Shown: piece by piece, positions 8,110-31,902 of the stretch
How positions within the stretch are numbered: the stretch's first letter is position 1
Layout of the letters: each line of letters begins with the position of its first letter
Assembly: GCF_020405225.1 (NCBI RefSeq)
Contig: NZ_CP084472.1
Location: 2,418,001-2,482,000, forward strand
Source of the DNA: Natrinema sp. DC36
GTDB taxonomy: Archaea > Halobacteriota > Halobacteria > Halobacteriales > Natrialbaceae
Direction of reading: 5' to 3'
DNA: 64,000 nucleotides
The notes under the pieces: generated by a model
Databases searched by the model: none
The model's input: the letters and a program-made list of their open reading frames with translations, nothing else
What the model was told of the DNA's origin: nothing
Position numbers and translations under genes: made by a program

Positions 8110-8183
8110 CCGCCCTTAGCTCAGACTGGTAGAGCAGTCGACTGTAGATCGACTTGCCCCCCGTTCAAATCGGGGAGGGCGGA
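8110..8183 (+). tRNA. tRNA-Tyr (anticodon GUA)
   Basis: The acceptor stem CCGCCCT (8110-8116) pairs with AGGGCGG (8176-8182), and A8183 is the discriminator. The D arm starts at GCTC. The anticodon stem GTCGA/TCGAC encloses the loop CTGTAGA with anticodon GTA at 8144-8146. The T arm is CCCCG-TTCAAAT-CGGGG. CCA is not encoded and no intron is present. The 3' end is duplicated downstream at 8321-8341, which marks it as an integration target. Confidence 0.97.
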
Positions 8184-8341
8184 CTTTTACGACGACCAAC
8201 ACCGCGAGCGGAGCGAGCGGACTGGTCGTCGTAAAAGGAGACCGCGACACGATTTTGAACATGGAAGTCGCACGCCCACGCAGCCGAGCGAAGCGAGGCG
8301 AGTCGGAACGTCTTCCATCTGTTCAAATCGGGGAGGGCGGA
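8163..8341 (+). repeat. Duplicated tRNA-Tyr 3' end (att-like direct repeat) with hairpin between
   Basis: Bases 8163-8183 of the tRNA (GTTCAAATCGGGG then AGGGCGGA) recur exactly at 8321-8341, 158 bp downstream. A partial third copy, GTTCAAAT, is near 8370. This is the scar tyrosine integrases leave when using a tRNA 3' end as attB. Between the copies, CTTTTACGACGACCA (8184-8198) and TGGTCGTCGTAAAAG (8223-8237) form a perfect 15-bp hairpin around GAGCGGAGCGAGCG. A second weaker inverted repeat (TGGAAG / CTTCCA) follows. No integrase gene is present. Confidence 0.8.
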
Positions 8342-9324: not shown

Positions 9325-9638
9325 GACAGCGGTAGTCCGCGTGCTCGTCGCGAACGTCGTCGGACGCCGCGTTCGATCCGAACTCGAGTCAGCCCATCGA
9401 TCGGTCTCAGTGACATCGTGGGCGAGCCGGTAGTTCGGCAGTGTGCTCGAGTGGCTGTCGGAACCGCCGGTCGGTTCGCTCTCTTGGAGTGGTGAGTGCT
9501 CAAAGAGATCCTTGAGAGAATTGATGAAGGTCCAGCAATGTTGAAGATGCTGGTGCAGCAGTAGTATATTATGAGGAAACACTACGTCAGCGTTCTGCAG
9601 AGTTGTTAAGTAAGGGTCGTCACTAAGAGCTAGTATCC
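9325..9638. other. Left edge of the AT-rich island; promoter of its first gene
   Basis: The base composition drops from GC-rich to AT-rich between about 9480 and 9560. A TATA-like AGTATATTATG around 9561-9572 would start transcription near 9590-9600, giving the gene at 9639 a short leader. No insertion-sequence end or tRNA fragment marks the junction. Confidence 0.5.
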
Positions 9639-10343
9639 ATGAAATCCGGAAGTATTGCCATTTCGAATGGTAGTGTTGAAGAAATCGATTCCTGCACAAA
9701 TACGGTAGACAAACACGGATTTGAGGCCATAGAATGTATTGATATTAGAGAATCGATCACTGACCTATCCGGAAATACATTAGCTTTCAAGGGAGTTGCT
9801 GCAGAACAGTATCTCAAAGATGGGAAGTCAATTTCGATTTCTGAAGAGAGTGATTCGATCTCAGTTATAGAGGGAGCAGACCTTGCCTGGCGATATACAG
9901 ATCTATTGATTATTCCAGATGATATTCTGGTCTTAGGAAGTAGCTCTGCCGACTTTGTATTTGAGATTATCAGATCAAATTTCGGTATTAACTTCGAAAG
10001 GGCGGAAATAGATCTTCAAGCCTACAGAAAGACCGTTGAAGATGAGTATTCGGATGTAGAACCTTGGAAAATAGGATTCTATGGTAGAGAAGGAAATGCA
10101 GATAACGGAGTCATTCACGGGAACAATCTATTGGATGATTCCGATATTGGTGAGATTCTGTCACACAATGCAACTAACCAAATTGGGTTGAATTTCTCAC
10201 GGGACGGTAAACAGATGAAGACATTTGTGACGGAAAGTGGATATGTGGACATTTATCAACCAAGCGATTATGAATCCGGGCAGTTTGTGAATTATCTGAA
10301 GGAAGATATTCGACCATATCTTAGGACGGATTTAGTACTGTAA
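9639..10343 (+). CDS. Island gene 1: unrecognised 234-residue protein
   Basis: 234 residues beginning MKSGSIAISNGSVEEID. It looks like a soluble alternating alpha/beta protein, with strands such as LLIIPDDILVLGSS and ISVIEGADLAW and a C-terminal helix (FVNYLKEDIRPYLRTD). I see no signal peptide, membrane segment or catalytic motif. The region is about 40% GC against about 65% around it, with AT-ending codons, so recent transfer is likely. It lies 49 bp before the second gene on the same strand but is separated by a second TATA-like box, so it may be expressed independently. By position it could be a sensor, immunity or accessory component of the nuclease-encoding cassette; that is inference only. 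Confidence 0.75.
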   Translation: MKSGSIAISNGSVEEIDSCTNTVDKHGFEAIECIDIRESITDLSGNTLAFKGVAAEQYLKDGKSISISEESDSISVIEGADLAWRYTDLLIIPDDILVLGSSSADFVFEIIRSNFGINFERAEIDLQAYRKTVEDEYSDVEPWKIGFYGREGNADNGVIHGNNLLDDSDIGEILSHNATNQIGLNFSRDGKQMKTFVTESGYVDIYQPSDYESGQFVNYLKEDIRPYLRTDLVL

Positions 10344-10356
10344 TATAATTTCAAGT

Positions 10357-10392
10357 AAATATATATGTCAGGACTATACTTGATAGTAGTAT
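10357..10392 (+). promoter_or_regulatory. TATA box for a leaderless island gene 2
   Basis: AAATATATAT at 10357-10366 precedes the ATG at 10393 by 26 bases, the spacing of a leaderless haloarchaeal transcript. Genes 2 and 3 of the island would then share this promoter. AT-rich surroundings make chance TATA matches common, so the spacing is the main argument. Confidence 0.55.
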
Positions 10393-11709
10393 ATGAAATC
10401 AGAACGAGATGTTTTCGCAAATACATATGATTTAAGTGTACTTCGATCATCTGCGAATAAAATATCAAAAGGTGTAGAAGAGGGGCTGAATGGCTCACTG
10501 AGAGAGGAGATTGAAGCCTTAGATGCCTTGTTTTCTCGAGAAGAGTTTAAGGAGTGGATCGACTCATTGGACGAGGATCTATTCCAAAGATTGCGAAGGA
10601 CTGTTCATCGAGAAGACCGCCGAATGACTCTAAGAAACCGAAGTTCGAAGCTCTCTTACATTCATAACGTAGATATTGATTCGGGCTTAAAAAAAGATGA
10701 GAAGATAGAGAAACTCGTTCAGCAACTGTCTTCCAGAGAGACTGCATATTATGATGCCCATTTTGAATTTGCAAGTACTAGCTCTTATTTATATACTATA
10801 GATGGATTTGAGGGAGTAGTAGGGGGTATTGCTACAGACGCCGCTGGGCCTCACGACGCTGAAGAAAAATTTGCAGAACGTGCCAGAGAGCGAGACGACA
10901 TTGACGAAACATATGCATCTGCTGCAGAGGGGCTCGCACCAATCGCTGGAAAACTAGAGAAGGCACCAAAGCCAAGGGTGATTAAATTTGAAGATGAGGA
11001 TCACATATTTATCGAATTTTGGGCTGTAGGGACAGAGGATAGCATATTTGACGGACAAGAGGGATATTCAATGAACTACAATCCTCGAATCCGATCTGCA
11101 GCTCGAATGCATCTTGATACTGGAATGGTAGAAGTGTTTGATGGGAAGAAAAAAGAGCAACACCGAAAAACACTCGTTGATCGGTTAGAAAAGTTGTGTA
11201 ATGGGGCGAAATTAGTAACAGATGGAGGTGAACAAAAAACAAGAGAGATTAATATTCTACGGGAAAAAACACTCTCTGAAGACAATATTTGGGATGTTAT
11301 GGACAGCATTGGTATGCTTACAACGCTAGAAGGTTTTGGAGGTAGGACAGCAGATGCAAAGCTTTCTGCAGTGCATAATAGAGACGTCCGGAAAGACGAT
11401 ACCCATGAGGACCTCCGTCATGATCGTAATTTAGAACTTGCAAATATTAAGTTATTTTTTGATGATCTAGAAGGGATTCGAGAGTTTGTGAAGCCATCTG
11501 AGATAGGTGAAAAAATAGAATTTGAGAAGGAGGCAACACAGTCAGAAATGAAAGAAGAGATAGGAAAAATGTTTGATTATAAAAATATTGACCACGTAAC
11601 TTTGACTTTAAACGAAGACAATAACACGTTTCGAGTGCAAAAGAAAAATTGTTCACCAGCAACCCGCCAAGCAGTATTTCATTTGGTTTCTGAAGAGCTC
11701 GGGTGGTAA
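10393..11709 (+). CDS. Island gene 2: unrecognised 438-residue protein
   Basis: 438 residues, starting MKSERDVFANTYDLSVLRSS. The first about 150 residues are highly charged and mainly helical (LREEIEALDALFSREEFKEW). The middle has a beta-rich segment (VIKFEDEDHIFIEFWAVG) after a glycine-containing loop (GFEGVVGGIATDAAG). The C-terminal part is again charged (EFEKEATQSEMKEEIG) and ends in VFHLVSEELGW. I see no Walker, HTH, nuclease or transmembrane signature. Its TAA is one base before the ATG of gene 3 (TAAAATG), so the two products are almost certainly made together and probably interact. GC is low, like genes 1 and 3. Confidence 0.82.
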   Translation: MKSERDVFANTYDLSVLRSSANKISKGVEEGLNGSLREEIEALDALFSREEFKEWIDSLDEDLFQRLRRTVHREDRRMTLRNRSSKLSYIHNVDIDSGLKKDEKIEKLVQQLSSRETAYYDAHFEFASTSSYLYTIDGFEGVVGGIATDAAGPHDAEEKFAERARERDDIDETYASAAEGLAPIAGKLEKAPKPRVIKFEDEDHIFIEFWAVGTEDSIFDGQEGYSMNYNPRIRSAARMHLDTGMVEVFDGKKKEQHRKTLVDRLEKLCNGAKLVTDGGEQKTREINILREKTLSEDNIWDVMDSIGMLTTLEGFGGRTADAKLSAVHNRDVRKDDTHEDLRHDRNLELANIKLFFDDLEGIREFVKPSEIGEKIEFEKEATQSEMKEEIGKMFDYKNIDHVTLTLNEDNNTFRVQKKNCSPATRQAVFHLVSEELGW

Positions 11710-11710
11710 A

Positions 11711-13144
11711 ATGAGGGAAGAATGGATCACAGATCCAAATAAGTTCGAAGTCCTTACAAAAGTCGTAAGAGAAACTGCTAGAGGAGGAATTCTAAAAGAA
11801 TCAAAGATAGATACTGATGAGTTGGAGATCATTGAAGACGGAGTTAATGAAGATGTGTTTAAGAAGGACGAAATCAGAGCCTGTCCCAGTTGTTACCACA
11901 AATACCCAGAAAATAGTATCCCAGAAATATGTGAGGAATGTGATACAAACTTAGATAGAAACGAACCTATATCATCAAAGACAAGATATTTTGAATCGGT
12001 TTGGCCAGAAAAATTAGAAAAGGTACTTGATCCTTACACAGAAGATATCGAAGTTAACTTTACTAAGTCGAGATCGATAGAAGATGTTTCCCTATCAGAT
12101 GTTACTATTGAAGGAAATGATCCCATATTACATATTTCACCATATTTTGACTTGGAACATCAATGGTACTCATTCCCACAGTATAGTGATGTATTTGTGG
12201 ATTGGGTGCAAATTCCGAAATTGATAACAGAACCAGCTGATTCGAAAGAGGCGATCCGAAATTTTCTCGACACCAATGAGCTTAATGCCTCTAAGATAGG
12301 TGACGAACTTGGTGGTGTGGAAAATATACACTACACTGGTCCTGGGGCACCAGGTCCACAATACACCTCAAAGAGTTCTTGGTGTACTCTTCTTGATCGA
12401 GTCGAAGATAAACCTAAAGCGAATGAACTCTCAAAACGAAGATTTGGTATCAATTACAATGAGATGTTCGAAAGACTTGGGATAGAGTTCACCCACGCGC
12501 TATTTCCGTACGCAAATACACTCCATTTTGGTGGTAACCACGTACCAGACGGACTCCTTCATTTTGCGAAAGAAGGTGTCGAATCCACCTATCTGGTAGA
12601 ATCAAAGTGTTACTCAAGAGATTTTAAAATATTTGAGGAACAGGATAAAGCAACAAGGTATATTGATAGGTTTGTGGAAAACGTTGAGGGTGATCCAGAT
12701 ATGGCTCACGATCTGAAAGGATACGTATTCTTTGCGTGCCAATTTGACGAAAAACGGGTGAAAGAAGACATCCACCAATTCATAGAAAAAAACTCACCGA
12801 AGAAAGATCTGGACATTATATGTATGAATGGTGGTATGTTGGAAGAAGGAATGGGGCGCTTGTCCTACCTATATCGAAGAGAGCCATCAGCAACTTATCG
12901 TATTTGGAAGCATACGAATTGGTATCAAGAAATGATTAACGGACTAATAGATTTTTCAGAGGAATATACAAATGATAAAGATTTATTTAAAAAGGATATA
13001 CTTGAGACACTGGAGAATATCGGACATAAAAAGACTAGTACTGAAGAAAAAATCAGAGATGGTTTGAAGAAACCTCCATCGTGGAACGAGATCCAAAGCC
13101 AGACCGAAAACAATCGTCCTGAAGATTATCGAGTGACTTCCTAA
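11711..13144 (+). CDS. Island gene 3: zinc-ribbon plus PD-(D/E)xK nuclease-like protein
   Basis: 477 residues. A zinc ribbon is formed by Cys58, Cys61, Cys74 and Cys77 (ACPSCYHKY and ICEECD). In the second half, HVPDG places Asp280 after a hydrophobic strand, and STYLVESKC supplies Glu297-x-Lys299, 16 residues later. PD-x(n)-ExK with alternating strands is the signature of the PD-(D/E)xK nuclease superfamily; a Gln311 and the helix after it also fit. The strand GYVFFACQF follows. The C-terminal 80 residues are charged and helical. The function is inferred to be DNA cleavage, perhaps restriction-like, working with gene 2. No methylase or helicase is nearby. The family is unknown to me. Confidence 0.83.
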   Translation: MREEWITDPNKFEVLTKVVRETARGGILKESKIDTDELEIIEDGVNEDVFKKDEIRACPSCYHKYPENSIPEICEECDTNLDRNEPISSKTRYFESVWPEKLEKVLDPYTEDIEVNFTKSRSIEDVSLSDVTIEGNDPILHISPYFDLEHQWYSFPQYSDVFVDWVQIPKLITEPADSKEAIRNFLDTNELNASKIGDELGGVENIHYTGPGAPGPQYTSKSSWCTLLDRVEDKPKANELSKRRFGINYNEMFERLGIEFTHALFPYANTLHFGGNHVPDGLLHFAKEGVESTYLVESKCYSRDFKIFEEQDKATRYIDRFVENVEGDPDMAHDLKGYVFFACQFDEKRVKEDIHQFIEKNSPKKDLDIICMNGGMLEEGMGRLSYLYRREPSATYRIWKHTNWYQEMINGLIDFSEEYTNDKDLFKKDILETLENIGHKKTSTEEKIRDGLKKPPSWNEIQSQTENNRPEDYRVTS

Positions 13145-13162
13145 GCGAATTACAGTGTCGGC

Positions 13163-13183
13163 AGATGTGAATATTTCACATCT
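13163..13183. terminator. Inverted repeat after the island cassette
   Basis: AGATGTGAA (13163-13171), TAT, TTCACATCT (13175-13183) is a perfect 9-bp inverted repeat beginning 18 bases after the stop of island gene 3. A second small hairpin, AGCGT/ACGCT, is at 13227-13242. Either could shape the transcript 3' end. A palindromic operator is the alternative. Confidence 0.45.
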
Positions 13184-13309
13184 CATTCATAGTGTGATTA
13201 GAATCTTCTTGATGTAGGGGTCTTTGAGCGTAATTCCACGCTACAATTTTCTGAAAAGGGGATCGTTTAGTGTTCGCGACCGCACCGTCCTCACATCCCA
13301 GCGAACATA

Positions 13310-13413
13310 TCAAACAAGTACATCTGCGACAAGTATGTAGTCCTGTGGATCTTCAGAGAAATATTCGAGGACCGCTCGTCTAGCGCACAATCCATCAAGT
13401 GGGTTCCGATTTA
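13310..13413 (-). pseudogene. Short coding-like remnant
   Basis: On the minus strand, upstream of a TGA at 13310-13312, one frame reads VINRNPLDGLCARRAVLEYF and then SEDPQDYILVADVLV. The composition is protein-like, but there is no start codon: the frame runs back into the preceding regulator gene in another frame. It looks like the C-terminal stub of a lost gene. I cannot name it. Confidence 0.35.
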
Positions 13414-13730
13414 TTACGGTTCCGAGGAATGACTTGCAGGGGGGTCGTCTTGTGAGTCGTTTCCGGTGAGATAAACCTCGTTTTCAGCGTCGTACTCCTC
13501 ATCGAGGTACGCTTTTCCTCGGTCGGTGATTGTGTAGACACCATTCCCGAGAGGAGTGAGCAATCCGTGCTCTGCGAGCTTCTTGCATCGCCGGGATACC
13601 GAGGATTGAGAAATTCTAATCCCGTTCCGTTCCGTTCCGTGAGATCCCCCACTCTCCCCGCGTCTTCCTCTCGAATGATCTCGAGGATCCGATCATCCCA
13701 GATCGTCATCCATGTCCCAGATTGCCTCAT
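13414..13730 (-). pseudogene. Winged-helix regulator, out of frame by one 5-bp repeat unit (phase-variable or decayed)
   Basis: From the ATG at 13730 the frame encodes MTIWDDRILEIIREEDAGRV and GDLTERNG, then leaves the conserved frame at a CGTTC tandem repeat (13622-13640). Removing one 5-base unit continues as GIRISQSSVSRRCKKLAEHG, then LLTPLGNGVYTITDRGKAYL and an acidic tail to a TAA at 13414. The repaired product is 103 residues and matches the PhiH1-repressor-like winged helix common in haloarchaea and their viruses. An alternative start is the ATG at 13709. Gain or loss of repeat units could switch the gene on and off. Confidence 0.85.
13622..13640. repeat. CGTTC pentanucleotide tandem repeat
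   Basis: CGTTC is repeated three times from 13623 to 13637 and followed by CGT, inside the winged-helix gene at the exact place where the reading frame breaks. The unit length of five is not a multiple of three, so each slippage event changes the frame. Confidence 0.9.
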
Positions 13731-27359: not shown

Positions 27360-27566
27360 ACCGACAGTGGTGCGGCATCCTTTTTCAACCTCCGTCCCGG
27401 TCCTGAAAGGCGGTCACTCTGGTTCTCGGGATGGCTGTCGCTTGAGGCGAGAATCCGACGATAGTCAACTACTACTCCGCAAACGATCGCATTCGACGTC
27501 AGCGTTCCTGATCGAGACAGTATCCTAAGAATTATACTTTGCTGAAGTAAAGTGATCGTATATAAC

Positions 27567-28778
27567 ATGGGTCGGAAATCGATTCGGACACGCCGGAACT
27601 GGTTGGCGAGTTGTGCGAGCGTTACTGCGGGGCTTGCAACGCTGGCTGGCTGTATGAATAGTGACGAGACGAGTGACGAACCTGAAAACAGCGATGACCT
27701 CCCGCCTACCACATGGCCGATGTACGGCGTCGACCCACAGAATACTGGTCATCATCCGACAGCGACTGGACCGAGTGGTGGAGAGGTAGAACTGCGGACC
27801 GTCTTTGAATCGGAGGGAGTGATTAGTAATAGTCCAGCAATCGCTGACGGGACGTTGTACGTCGCTGCGGACAACCATCTCCACGCAGTTGATCTTGCGA
27901 CTGAGGAACTCGAGTGGAAGAAACAAGTGAATGCCTCACCTAGTGCTCATCCCGCTGTTTCTGATAAAGGGGTGTATGCCGGAACGAAAGACGGGATTGT
28001 CGCAGTAGAGCGTGGCGGCGATTCGGTGCTCTGGCGGAATGATGTGGGAATCAGTAGCATAAATCCTGTGATAGCTGACAATGCTGTAGTCGGTACGCAG
28101 AATCTGATTCTCCATCGCTTTGATCCGGAATTTGGTGACGAAAAACCCCTGCATAATATGCGAGATTATCAGGGCGGTGGACCGCATACAAATGTTCCTG
28201 CCGTTGCTGATGGAACTGTGTATTTTGCGGGTGAAAATACCCTCTATGCGGTGGATCTCGAGACTGGCGAAGTTGAGTGGCAATTCGAAAACCCAGCAGG
28301 AGAACCGTTAGGTGAGAGTAATCCTGCAGTCAAAGATGGGACAGTTTATGTTGGTGGCGAAGACCAGCGTCTTTATGCGATCGATACTGAGAATGGCTCT
28401 GAAGAGTGGTCAATAGAAATTAACGCAAGCGTAGAATGGAGTCCATCAATAGCAGATGGGACGATCTATTTCGGTGGAGCTGGTGCGGGTGCTCAGAAGT
28501 TTTTTGCTATTGATCAAGAGTCTCAAGATCATGTTTGGGGACCGAAGGACCTTCGATACAGTGTGCGCTCAAAGCCGATAGTTGCTGATGGGATTGTCTA
28601 TCTCTCTAATTATCGTGATTTGATTGCCTTCGATTCTGAGAACGGAACAGTGAATTGGAAATATGAAGATATCGGAGAGGGAGTGAGTGAATCTATAGGT
28701 GCTACACCTGCACTTTCTGATGGCCAACTCTATTTTTCGTCATTAGCTGGTGAGGTTTGTAAGATTACCAGTTCGTGA
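27567..28778 (+). CDS. Tat lipoprotein with PQQ-type beta-propeller
   Basis: 403 residues from the ATG at 27567. The signal RTRRNWLASCASVTAGLATL ends in a lipobox LAGC, so the protein is exported through Tat and lipid-anchored outside the cell. The rest is a PQQ/quinoprotein-like propeller with about seven repeats of the pattern PAVADGTVYFAG...LYAVDLETGEVEWQFE. Such propellers often act as scaffolds or BamB-like partners; a catalytic quinoprotein role would need metal and PQQ ligands that I cannot confirm. Its base composition is clearly more AT-rich than the genes before it, matching the distal part of the convergent pilus operon. It may belong to a transferred surface patch. Confidence 0.88.
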   Translation: MGRKSIRTRRNWLASCASVTAGLATLAGCMNSDETSDEPENSDDLPPTTWPMYGVDPQNTGHHPTATGPSGGEVELRTVFESEGVISNSPAIADGTLYVAADNHLHAVDLATEELEWKKQVNASPSAHPAVSDKGVYAGTKDGIVAVERGGDSVLWRNDVGISSINPVIADNAVVGTQNLILHRFDPEFGDEKPLHNMRDYQGGGPHTNVPAVADGTVYFAGENTLYAVDLETGEVEWQFENPAGEPLGESNPAVKDGTVYVGGEDQRLYAIDTENGSEEWSIEINASVEWSPSIADGTIYFGGAGAGAQKFFAIDQESQDHVWGPKDLRYSVRSKPIVADGIVYLSNYRDLIAFDSENGTVNWKYEDIGEGVSESIGATPALSDGQLYFSSLAGEVCKITSS

Positions 28779-28839
28779 GTATCAGCACCTATTATTAGAT
28801 TAAATAGTATTTATATAGTTAGTTATGGCCACTATAAGA

Positions 28840-31800
28840 CTAAACTGGCAAACTTCCTGTAGCCTTATCGGATATACACTCGTTACTATTTGCTTCAAAA
28901 CTAGGGCCAGTACTGTTCCAAGCGACTGAACAGTCCTCCTGTGGAGAATTTGAAGTCTTGTATCGCCATGTATCACCGACTCCCGGGGATCCCTTAGCCA
29001 GTAGTTGGGGACTCGGAACAACGATTGGGATCGCGAGGTTATTATCGAATGAGATCGGTTCAACAGACCCGGCTACAAGTTCGTCCTTTTTAGCCCAAGG
29101 TGGTGTATCAATCGTTACATCTGTATCTTGTCGCACATATGTTATTCCGCTTGTGCTCGTTGGGTCTCCGCTATTGCCACGTACTTCGAACCGGGCGTAT
29201 TCTCCTTGTATCTCAAGATAATACGCATCAAGCTGCAGGTAGAACAGTGATGGCCACGGCATAAGAGGGAAACCGGGATGTCCGACACCGTCGAAGTATC
29301 CAACTCCCAACGGGGCATGATCTGTCTCATTGATATTATCGATAGAGAGTGCATCACCTCCTTCTGGTCGGACTGCAGGGACATCAGTTCGATTAATAGT
29401 TTCTAACGAGAGATACGTCGGTGACGCCTCGACCTGATAATTCACGTCCTCCATCAATGGTGGACCCTTGAGCGATACTCGTGCATCTTCAGGACGCGTT
29501 TCGGGATCCATCTTCTGATCAACGAAGTTCATTGGACCACCGAGGAGATCATTACTGGTATCGAGAAGGCCTCCAAGAAGATCATTGAGTATGGCATTAC
29601 TTTCACCGAGTGTATCGTCGTGCCAGCTACTGATCCGATCGATATTATCGTATGTATTCTCAAAATATTGCTTCCGAACCTCTGCCCGGAGGAGATCGGC
29701 TGTATTATCGTACGGTTCGGAGACGTTTTGATACACTATCTCGCCTTCTAGACTACTCACATTCCTCTTAATTTTCTTGAGAGGGCTTGGCTTCTCAACC
29801 ATATTCCAGAGATCAGTTTGATGGGGTTCCACGGTCGTTATGACTTTGTAGTGTGTCTGATTAAGGTCGGCTAGTACCCACTGGTACAGTTCGTCCTTGT
29901 TCCGTGGCTTGACATCAATATTCGGAGATGAAAAGTATGGAATCGCCTTGTCGAAGTCCCCTGCCGTGATTATCGATTCACTTGAACTCTCAATCTTCCG
30001 TTCAAGTTCCCGTTCTTGTGACTGCACAGAGGTTGAGCTCAGATTAAATACCTCTTTGATAGCTTTGCTCTTGATATTTCTAAAATTCCAAACTGGACTA
30101 TACTCTTCACCCCACGAATTTGTTTTAAAGAGCGACTGAATACCACGGGTTTCCCTCTCAACTTCAATATCATTCGAGATAAAATCTCCAGTAATCTCAT
30201 AGCTTGCACTATATGTTATGTTATCTTTCCAGTTCCAGCGTGTACGTGATGAATCATTTTCGTCTTCATGCACCCATTCTGTCCTGACTCCAATAGAATT
30301 CTTATAGTCAATAGTGATTCGAGCCAGATCTCGGTTATCGAAGCTAGTATCATCTTCTTCTGAAATTATGTTAATTGAGGCATCAGCATCTGCTGGTGAG
30401 ATACCAGCATAATACGTTCTGTTAGCGGAACCAGACCAGTTTTTTGGGTTTGGAGCCCATTCACTCGGAGGCAATGGTTCTGGTAAGTTGTCATTCCTAA
30501 GCAATCTAGATTCAGTCGACTTAATTTCTGCCTGGTAAATGTCGTTTATTGAATTCGATATCTGATCACTTCCGGGGTATTCATTTGTGAACACTCTCTC
30601 AATGCGCTCCATAACACCGCTATCATCGTCTCTCAGATTCCCTACCCTGTCCGCTATACCTTGGTTATCTACTCTGTCTGAGTAGTAGCTTTCCAGATAT
30701 GCTTTGGAAAATTGGTTGCTTTTCTTAAGCCGTCCGTTAAACTCCGACTCTACTCGATCCATGTTCATTCCAGCCACCATCTGCATATACGCAACATCGG
30801 CAAACGGGTGGGCCTGAATCTCGACATCGGTCTCGACGTTGTCCTCGAGCATCGTCAGCATTATATCCTGTACAGTCGGCGGATCCGGAAGTTCCCCTTC
30901 CTGATCGATTAGATCACTATTACAGATATTAGTCCGATTAGAGAGATTACTCGCCTCCCCGTCCGGGAGGAAGTCCGCGGTCTCGATATCGCCCGCGCTC
31001 GAGGCGAGATCACCGGCCATACAGAGCGTCGGTAAGAGCATGGCGCGGTCTTTGTACGGGTCGGTTGTACCGAAGGTTTTCTCCTGCAGTCCGAAGACGG
31101 CGTCGTTGACCATGACTTCGGTGTGCTCGTTGGGAGTAAGGTTGTGGAAGGCGCGATCACCGCTGTCGAGTCGGTCGTAGTAGGCTTTCCCCCACGCGTA
31201 CGGGTACATCCGAGCGGCAAAGTACCGCCCGAAGCCGTCGTACTGGCCGTCGCTTTCGAAAAAGCCCGTGTTGAGCTGCGATTGGAACTCGTCGGTTCGG
31301 TCTTTGAGTTGATAGAGCGGCGTGCCGACAGTCACCGACAGCTCCCGCCGCTCGGTGACTGGCTGACGCTCCGTTTCGTCGACGGTGAGTTCGATGCCGT
31401 CAACCGTGACGGTGAGGACCCCCGATTCCTCTTTCTCGAGCGAGACTCGATCGATCGCCGCCTCGAGGTCGTCGCTGTCGCTCCAGTCGATCCGTTCGAC
31501 GGCGGCACGGGCGGTCGTCTCCCCATCGAATTGCTGATGAGCGCTCGCGAACGACTCCGAAACCTCTCGGTAGATGAGGAGTTTGAGATACTGGTCGAAG
31601 ACGGCCTCGTCGTCGTCCATCGCGGCGCGAACGGGGGCATCTGCCCCGTCGGTCGACGTGACGGGGGCACCAGCGGCATCCTCGGTTGCGCGGACGACCG
31701 CCTGCCGCAGTTCGGCGATCGCGACCGACTCGGCGCGATCCATGGCGAGCGCCCGATCGGTGTCGACGGCTGGGGTGTCTCTGGACTCCAACACGCCGAC

Positions 31801-31902
31801 GATCGCGATGCTACTGACCAGTAGCAGCACGGCGATCAGGGCGAACGGAATCCGGGCTCGGTCGTCGTCTGCGATCGAAACTGTGTGGGGTCTGCGTGTC
31901 AT
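28840..31902 (-). CDS. Large secreted/pseudopilin-like protein, last gene of Tad-like operon (DUF7286-like)
   Basis: 1020 residues. One N-terminal helix (IPFALIAVLLLVSSIAIVGV) leads into a very long extracytoplasmic region beginning with tyrosine-rich sequence (FARFDGFGRYFAARMYPYAW-like, near residues 215-240). Near the end come LMPWPSLFYLQLDAYYLEIQ and QDTDVTIDTPPWAKK. It overlaps the upstream gene by four bases (ATGA at 31902-31899). Size and position match a haloarchaeal family I recall as DUF7286. Codons 1 to about 315 are GC-rich like the operon, whereas the rest (below about 30950) is AT-rich. That pattern suggests a recombined, surface-exposed C-terminal region. A role as pilus tip or adhesin is inference. 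Confidence 0.82.
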   Translation of the reverse strand: MTRRPHTVSIADDDRARIPFALIAVLLLVSSIAIVGVLESRDTPAVDTDRALAMDRAESVAIAELRQAVVRATEDAAGAPVTSTDGADAPVRAAMDDDEAVFDQYLKLLIYREVSESFASAHQQFDGETTARAAVERIDWSDSDDLEAAIDRVSLEKEESGVLTVTVDGIELTVDETERQPVTERRELSVTVGTPLYQLKDRTDEFQSQLNTGFFESDGQYDGFGRYFAARMYPYAWGKAYYDRLDSGDRAFHNLTPNEHTEVMVNDAVFGLQEKTFGTTDPYKDRAMLLPTLCMAGDLASSAGDIETADFLPDGEASNLSNRTNICNSDLIDQEGELPDPPTVQDIMLTMLEDNVETDVEIQAHPFADVAYMQMVAGMNMDRVESEFNGRLKKSNQFSKAYLESYYSDRVDNQGIADRVGNLRDDDSGVMERIERVFTNEYPGSDQISNSINDIYQAEIKSTESRLLRNDNLPEPLPPSEWAPNPKNWSGSANRTYYAGISPADADASINIISEEDDTSFDNRDLARITIDYKNSIGVRTEWVHEDENDSSRTRWNWKDNITYSASYEITGDFISNDIEVERETRGIQSLFKTNSWGEEYSPVWNFRNIKSKAIKEVFNLSSTSVQSQERELERKIESSSESIITAGDFDKAIPYFSSPNIDVKPRNKDELYQWVLADLNQTHYKVITTVEPHQTDLWNMVEKPSPLKKIKRNVSSLEGEIVYQNVSEPYDNTADLLRAEVRKQYFENTYDNIDRISSWHDDTLGESNAILNDLLGGLLDTSNDLLGGPMNFVDQKMDPETRPEDARVSLKGPPLMEDVNYQVEASPTYLSLETINRTDVPAVRPEGGDALSIDNINETDHAPLGVGYFDGVGHPGFPLMPWPSLFYLQLDAYYLEIQGEYARFEVRGNSGDPTSTSGITYVRQDTDVTIDTPPWAKKDELVAGSVEPISFDNNLAIPIVVPSPQLLAKGSPGVGDTWRYKTSNSPQEDCSVAWNSTGPSFEANSNECISDKATGSLPV

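Follow-up and report, generated by a model that had tools for sequence, protein, structure and literature searches.

A pair of tightly coupled genes (genes 2 and 3) in a low-GC insert of the Natrinema sp. DC36 chromosome is a candidate for a mobile, modular two-gene restriction-like defense system, a reading that we consider reasonably probable. Archaeal defense beyond CRISPR and classical restriction-modification is thinly known. Gene 3 is predicted to encode a nuclease with an N-terminal zinc module and a FokI-type PD-(D/E)xK domain, and gene 2 a partner protein that matches no known family. The pair is conserved in other haloarchaea, and relatives of gene 2 in two genomes lie among restriction genes. 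The first-pass annotation, which was made from the letters of the sequence, had proposed a three-gene defense or restriction cassette; the defense role fits the neighbors of the gene 2 family in these two genomes (McrBC, DNA methyltransferases, and an SNF2 helicase), but the unit comprises genes 2 and 3, not three genes.

The low-GC insert and its gene layout

The window, i.e., the whole stretch of 64,000 nucleotides that was analyzed, contains three AT-rich open reading frames (ORFs) on the plus strand: gene 1 (positions 9639 to 10343; 234 amino acids [aa]), gene 2 (10393 to 11709; 438 aa), and gene 3 (11711 to 13144; 477 aa). Their coordinates, strand, and lengths had been given exactly in the first-pass annotation. 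The GC contents of the three genes are 0.397, 0.407, and 0.385, respectively, against 0.645 for the remainder of the window, and their GC3 values are 0.33 to 0.36, against approximately 0.87 in the genes adjoining the cassette. In a blastn comparison with G071 (the closest relative compared; locus L130), DNA homology extends up to position 9480 and begins again at 13494, which delimits an inserted segment (9481 to 13493; GC, 0.402) that is absent from G071. The same site spans 4.01 kb in the window and 705 bp in G071, where it holds a small intact winged-helix-like gene whose counterpart in the window (13395 to 13730) is broken. The entire patch, including gene 1, was either gained in the window genome or lost in G071 as a single block; we favor gain because of the low GC content and the rarity of the patch.

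Winged-helix-like genes of this kind, starting with MRxSGxWMTIWDDRILE or a similar sequence, border low-GC cargo in numerous haloarchaeal genomes (e.g., L130, 3017 to 3334 on the reverse complement; L039, 8758 to 9093; L062, 2337 to 2693; L063, 2622 to 2960; and L066, 8191 to 8502, in addition to the broken copy in the window) and are a possible marker of a hot spot for cargo insertion. Upstream of the insert, the 21-bp 3' end of a tRNA-Tyr gene (8163 to 8183) is repeated exactly 158 bp downstream (8321 to 8341); the repeat looks like an attachment-site scar left by a past integration event, and G071 apparently has it too. A second low-GC stretch of the window (27552 to 31902) carries a PQQ beta-propeller lipoprotein-like gene and a DUF7286 gene.

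The layout of genes 2 and 3 is that of a predicted operon. As had been noted earlier, a single base separates the gene 2 stop from the gene 3 ATG (11709/11711); GGTGG stands immediately 5' of this ATG, and a promoter would not fit between the two genes. The leaderless-type promoter previously proposed for gene 2 also found a match in the sequence: a TATA-like element, AAATATATAT (10357 to 10366, plus strand), lies approximately 31 bases upstream of the gene 2 ATG, as expected of a leaderless haloarchaeal gene, and is the putative promoter of gene 2.

Gene 1, which had been counted as a member of the system, does not share this coupling. Its family (phrog_18169; E = 3.5e-29) is common in haloarchaea, occurring in 31 of 194 genomes and twice in the genome of the window, and gene 1 is absent at every other gene 2 locus. 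Elsewhere, the family often heads a different conserved low-GC cassette of about four genes, which encode a gene 1-like protein and proteins of ~350, ~215, and ~150 to 220 aa. This cassette, a separate candidate system, was found in five haloarchaeal genomes (L060, 3807 to 7028; L061, 3874 to 7036; L062, 3716 to 6661; L063, 3993 to 7194; and L064, 6108 to 9115); one of the five copies lies close to a C5-cytosine DNA methyltransferase gene. When gene 2 was compared with the proteins that accompany members of the gene 1 family, no relation emerged. From these sequence comparisons, we treat gene 1 as a probable co-inserted passenger rather than as a conserved member of the module.

Gene 3 as a putative FokI-type nuclease

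Weak but agreeing evidence from sequence and structure prediction indicates that gene 3 encodes a putative zinc-binding PD-(D/E)xK nuclease, more exactly one of the FokI type. Shuffled copies of gene 3 served as a control for its motifs: the D...(D/E)xK pattern arose in 99% of the shuffles and PD...(D/E)xK in 28%, and CxxC-n-CxxC arose in none of 2000. Because the D...(D/E)xK motif is so common in shuffles, the nuclease claim must rest on homology. The residues that the first-pass annotation had singled out (C58, C61, C74, C77, D280, E297, and K299) are at the positions given there and are invariant across three homologs of gene 3 with 32 to 36% identity.

The best Pfam match of gene 3 is the FokI cleavage domain (FokI_cleav_dom, PF09254; residues 252 to 320; E = 2.1e-4), with a score of 21.2 that is under the cut-off of 25, and the homolog from Halogeometricum limi independently matches the same domain. 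A PDB search with a profile of the three homologs placed FokI (1fok and 2fok) at the top with an E value of 0.1, and GG..PDG, (D/E)xK-x-YS, Q-x-D, and RY align in order with 1fok. The AlphaFold model of gene 3, built from a two-sequence alignment, is poor (mean pLDDT, 35.7); its predicted secondary structure over residues 249 to 390 (alpha-beta-beta-alpha-beta-alpha-beta-alpha) fits a FokI-type fold at this low pLDDT, and a Foldseek search with the model (mean pLDDT, ~36) returned FokI first (E = 5.4e-4; probability, 1.0) and Nt.BspD6I second. The sole defense match of gene 3 is the generic PADLOC REase_II profile (residues 250 to 324). Weak matches in G125, G195, G302, G407, and G164 proved to be TFIIB-type zinc ribbons and were rejected as relatives.

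The cleavage core (12464 to 12670, plus strand; residues 252 to 320; PD280G ... E297-x-K299-x-YS ... QxD ... RY) is thus alignable to FokI with its catalytic residues conserved, by methods that agree and with no single strong score. The earlier assignment to zinc-binding PD-(D/E)xK nucleases can thereby be narrowed to the FokI type (Pfam, PDB profile, and Foldseek). Ahead of this core lies a putative adaptor module (11750 to 11956, plus strand; residues 14 to 82), identified with hhalign, which carries the zinc ligands C58, C61, C74, and C77 and is shared with the Mrr-type nucleases found beside relatives of gene 2.

The gene 2 family and its genomic contexts

Gene 2 has no significant match in Pfam, PADLOC, NCBIfam, PHROGs, or PDB, and specifically none to a helicase or ATPase family (Pfam and NCBIfam). 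Its AlphaFold model, likewise from a two-sequence alignment, is poor, and a fold search with it returned nothing. A profile search detected gene 2 homologs in 8 of 391 genomes of the class and no further relatives in a 393-genome sample across the phylum. No relatives of genes 2 and 3 were found in the viral contigs and phage records scanned, and a scan of public genomes recovered them in Halogeometricum limi only.

Members of the gene 2 family occur in three contexts: (A) with a FokI-type nuclease (the window, G023, and Halogeometricum limi); (B) with a shorter Mrr-type nuclease (G083, G280, and a plasmid of Haladaptatus halobius); and (C) divergent from a TrmB gene and a SocA_Panacea gene, without a nuclease (G068, G025, and G044; L037, 8217 to 10782; L038, 7901 to 10449; and L039, 9514 to 12027). 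Homology of gene 2 between contexts A and C on the one hand and context B on the other is firm (hhalign E = 5e-20), and a profile built without the B members finds gene 2 of the G280 locus (L053; 2.7e-69) and of the Haladaptatus halobius locus (L059; 7.7e-35). In the gene 2 tree, contexts B and C each form a group with good support, and the A members are not resolved. The context C branch may be a variant of the Panacea toxin-antitoxin systems. A TrmB-Panacea-like pair without gene 2 was also observed (L054, 9797 to 10989).

The coupling of genes 2 and 3 that had been claimed from the window recurs elsewhere. Each of the three genomes with gene 3 has the two genes side by side; they are 1 bp apart in the window and in Halogeometricum limi and overlap in G023. 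The pairs of G023 and Halogeometricum limi (32 to 36% identity) lack gene 1. The co-occurrence envisaged for the cassette was found for genes 2 and 3 and not for gene 1; at two Mrr-type loci, relatives of gene 2 lie near restriction genes.

An N-terminal module is shared by the nucleases of contexts A and B, which carry different nuclease domains behind it. The first 80 residues align in register (14 to 81 with 14 to 79) with an hhalign score of 33.8; none of 200 column shuffles scored above 24.5, and other alignments scored 14 to 21. The hhalign probability is low (21%), as would be expected of profiles with three sequences. With the zinc ribbon removed, the match is narrowly above 300 shuffles (17.6 versus 15.5). 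The C-terminal halves do not match each other, and the Mrr-type nuclease of G280 passes the cut-off of Pfam Mrr_cat (PF04471). A nuclease with the N-terminal zinc module adjoins a gene 2 family protein in 6 of 6 nuclease loci, in a sample of only three FokI-type and three Mrr-type pairs, of which the third Mrr-type locus (Haladaptatus halobius) came from a plasmid collection. Among the 391 genomes, no A-type (3 genomes) or B-type (2 genomes) nuclease was found without an adjacent gene 2. We read this as one putative docking or recognition module that appears fused to two different PD-(D/E)xK domains, always beside gene 2.

A broader interpretation is put forward tentatively: gene 2 may represent a haloarchaeal family of sensors or adaptors with interchangeable effectors (FokI- or Mrr-type nucleases attached via one zinc-binding N-terminal module), with a third branch wired to TrmB-Panacea genes, which would amount to a plug-in immune platform without a known counterpart.

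Proposed function, alternatives, and relation to known systems

In the proposed system, gene 3 would be the effector: the FokI-type domain would cut DNA, and the helical and zinc-ribbon module at the N terminus would dock the enzyme onto either gene 2 or the target. Gene 2 would act as a recognition or control subunit that keeps the nuclease inactive or steers it to foreign or modified DNA. Because the pair encodes no methyltransferase, discrimination between self and foreign DNA would have to rest on DNA modification or state, with a target that is itself modified or unusual in some other way (type IV-like), or on activation of the nuclease only after a phage trigger. The absence of a methyltransferase and the existence of Mrr-type sister pairs point to a possible type IV (modification-dependent) mode. 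A defense role would fit the neighbors of the pair in two relatives. In G280, a McrB-like AAA gene and then an McrC gene follow the pair on the same strand, and a DUF1156 methyltransferase gene lies farther on. The Haladaptatus halobius pair has in its vicinity an SNF2-type helicase that resembles DrmD/BrxH and an IIG/DrmMI-like methyltransferase.

The main rival explanation is a toxin-antitoxin system, in which gene 3 would be a DNA-cleaving toxin and gene 2 an antitoxin that stabilizes the mobile insert, with defense as a by-product. The compact order (partner first, nuclease second), the location of the pairs in mobile inserts, and the relatives of gene 2 that elsewhere lie opposite a TrmB-SocA_Panacea pair are consistent with it; Panacea is a domain of antitoxins that partner a wide range of toxins (PMC8832971). 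We nevertheless regard it as unlikely, given that both proteins are large (438 and 477 aa) and that relatives couple gene 2 to a restriction-type (Mrr) nuclease near restriction genes. Panacea (PanAT) toxin-antitoxin networks resemble the family in one gene 2 branch, but none of the window's three proteins has a Panacea domain (Pfam).

Still less likely is an orphan type IIS-like restriction enzyme, in which the N-terminal half of gene 3 would read a DNA sequence and gene 2 would help or would protect host DNA without methylation. The type IIS-related restriction and nicking enzymes FokI and Nt.BspD6I top the fold search and share the core order GG..PDG...(D/E)xKxYS...QxD..RY with gene 3, and PADLOC offers REase_II as its only defense match. 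Against this, the N-terminal zinc module that gene 3 has in place of the FokI recognition domain is shared with the Mrr-type enzymes, and no methyltransferase was found within the insert or in the ten neighboring window genes tested, which also distinguishes the pair from type II restriction-modification systems with a cognate methyltransferase alongside. The conserved partner gene is a further difference from FokI and Nt.BspD6I.

Neighbors of the FokI-type loci are mobile-element-like (DUF7845 and an HNH repeat) and not clearly related to defense. In G023 and Halogeometricum limi, the pair is immediately preceded by a DUF7845 gene of the same orientation (L035, 7105 to 8724; and L036, 12107 to 14254), and the Mrr-type pair of G083 (L040) stands between conjugation-like (TraC/TraG-like) genes and an integrase. 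Such neighbors would suit a function for an integrative element itself (i.e., excluding competitors, or integrating or processing DNA, rather than protecting the host), but this is improbable, as the window insert has no transfer or integrase gene and the same kind of pair is also found among restriction genes.

The preferred reading, a restriction-like defense pair, also differs from the described systems closest to it. Known Mrr-type (type IV) enzymes resemble the sister pairs, which carry an Mrr domain behind the same N-terminal module, but the nuclease domain in the window is of the FokI type instead; Mrr enzymes are not known to be accompanied by a protein like gene 2. Two-gene systems that combine a nuclease with a sensor, such as Hachiman (HamAB; PMC12278908), are alike in having two genes, a nuclease effector, and a presumed sensor or control protein, but gene 2 matches no helicase or ATPase family and the nuclease belongs to another group. 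PADLOC-DB 2.0 matched no described system, with the generic REase_II for gene 3 and nothing for genes 1 and 2. The first-pass annotation had recognized no published system, and in agreement with this, the combination matched nothing in Pfam, PADLOC, NCBIfam, or PHROGs and was not described in a literature search, where absence is not proof. Defense by a nuclease with a partner is of a known kind; what appears to be undescribed is the gene 2 family, together with the swapping of FokI-type and Mrr-type domains behind a common zinc module.

If this reading is true, genes 2 and 3 would represent an undescribed archaeal defense module that reuses one partner with different cutting domains, a case of natural effector exchange. 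The zinc module would then serve in nature as a docking tag for nucleases, one of them of the FokI type, and the short operon would be directly testable in haloarchaeal laboratory hosts.
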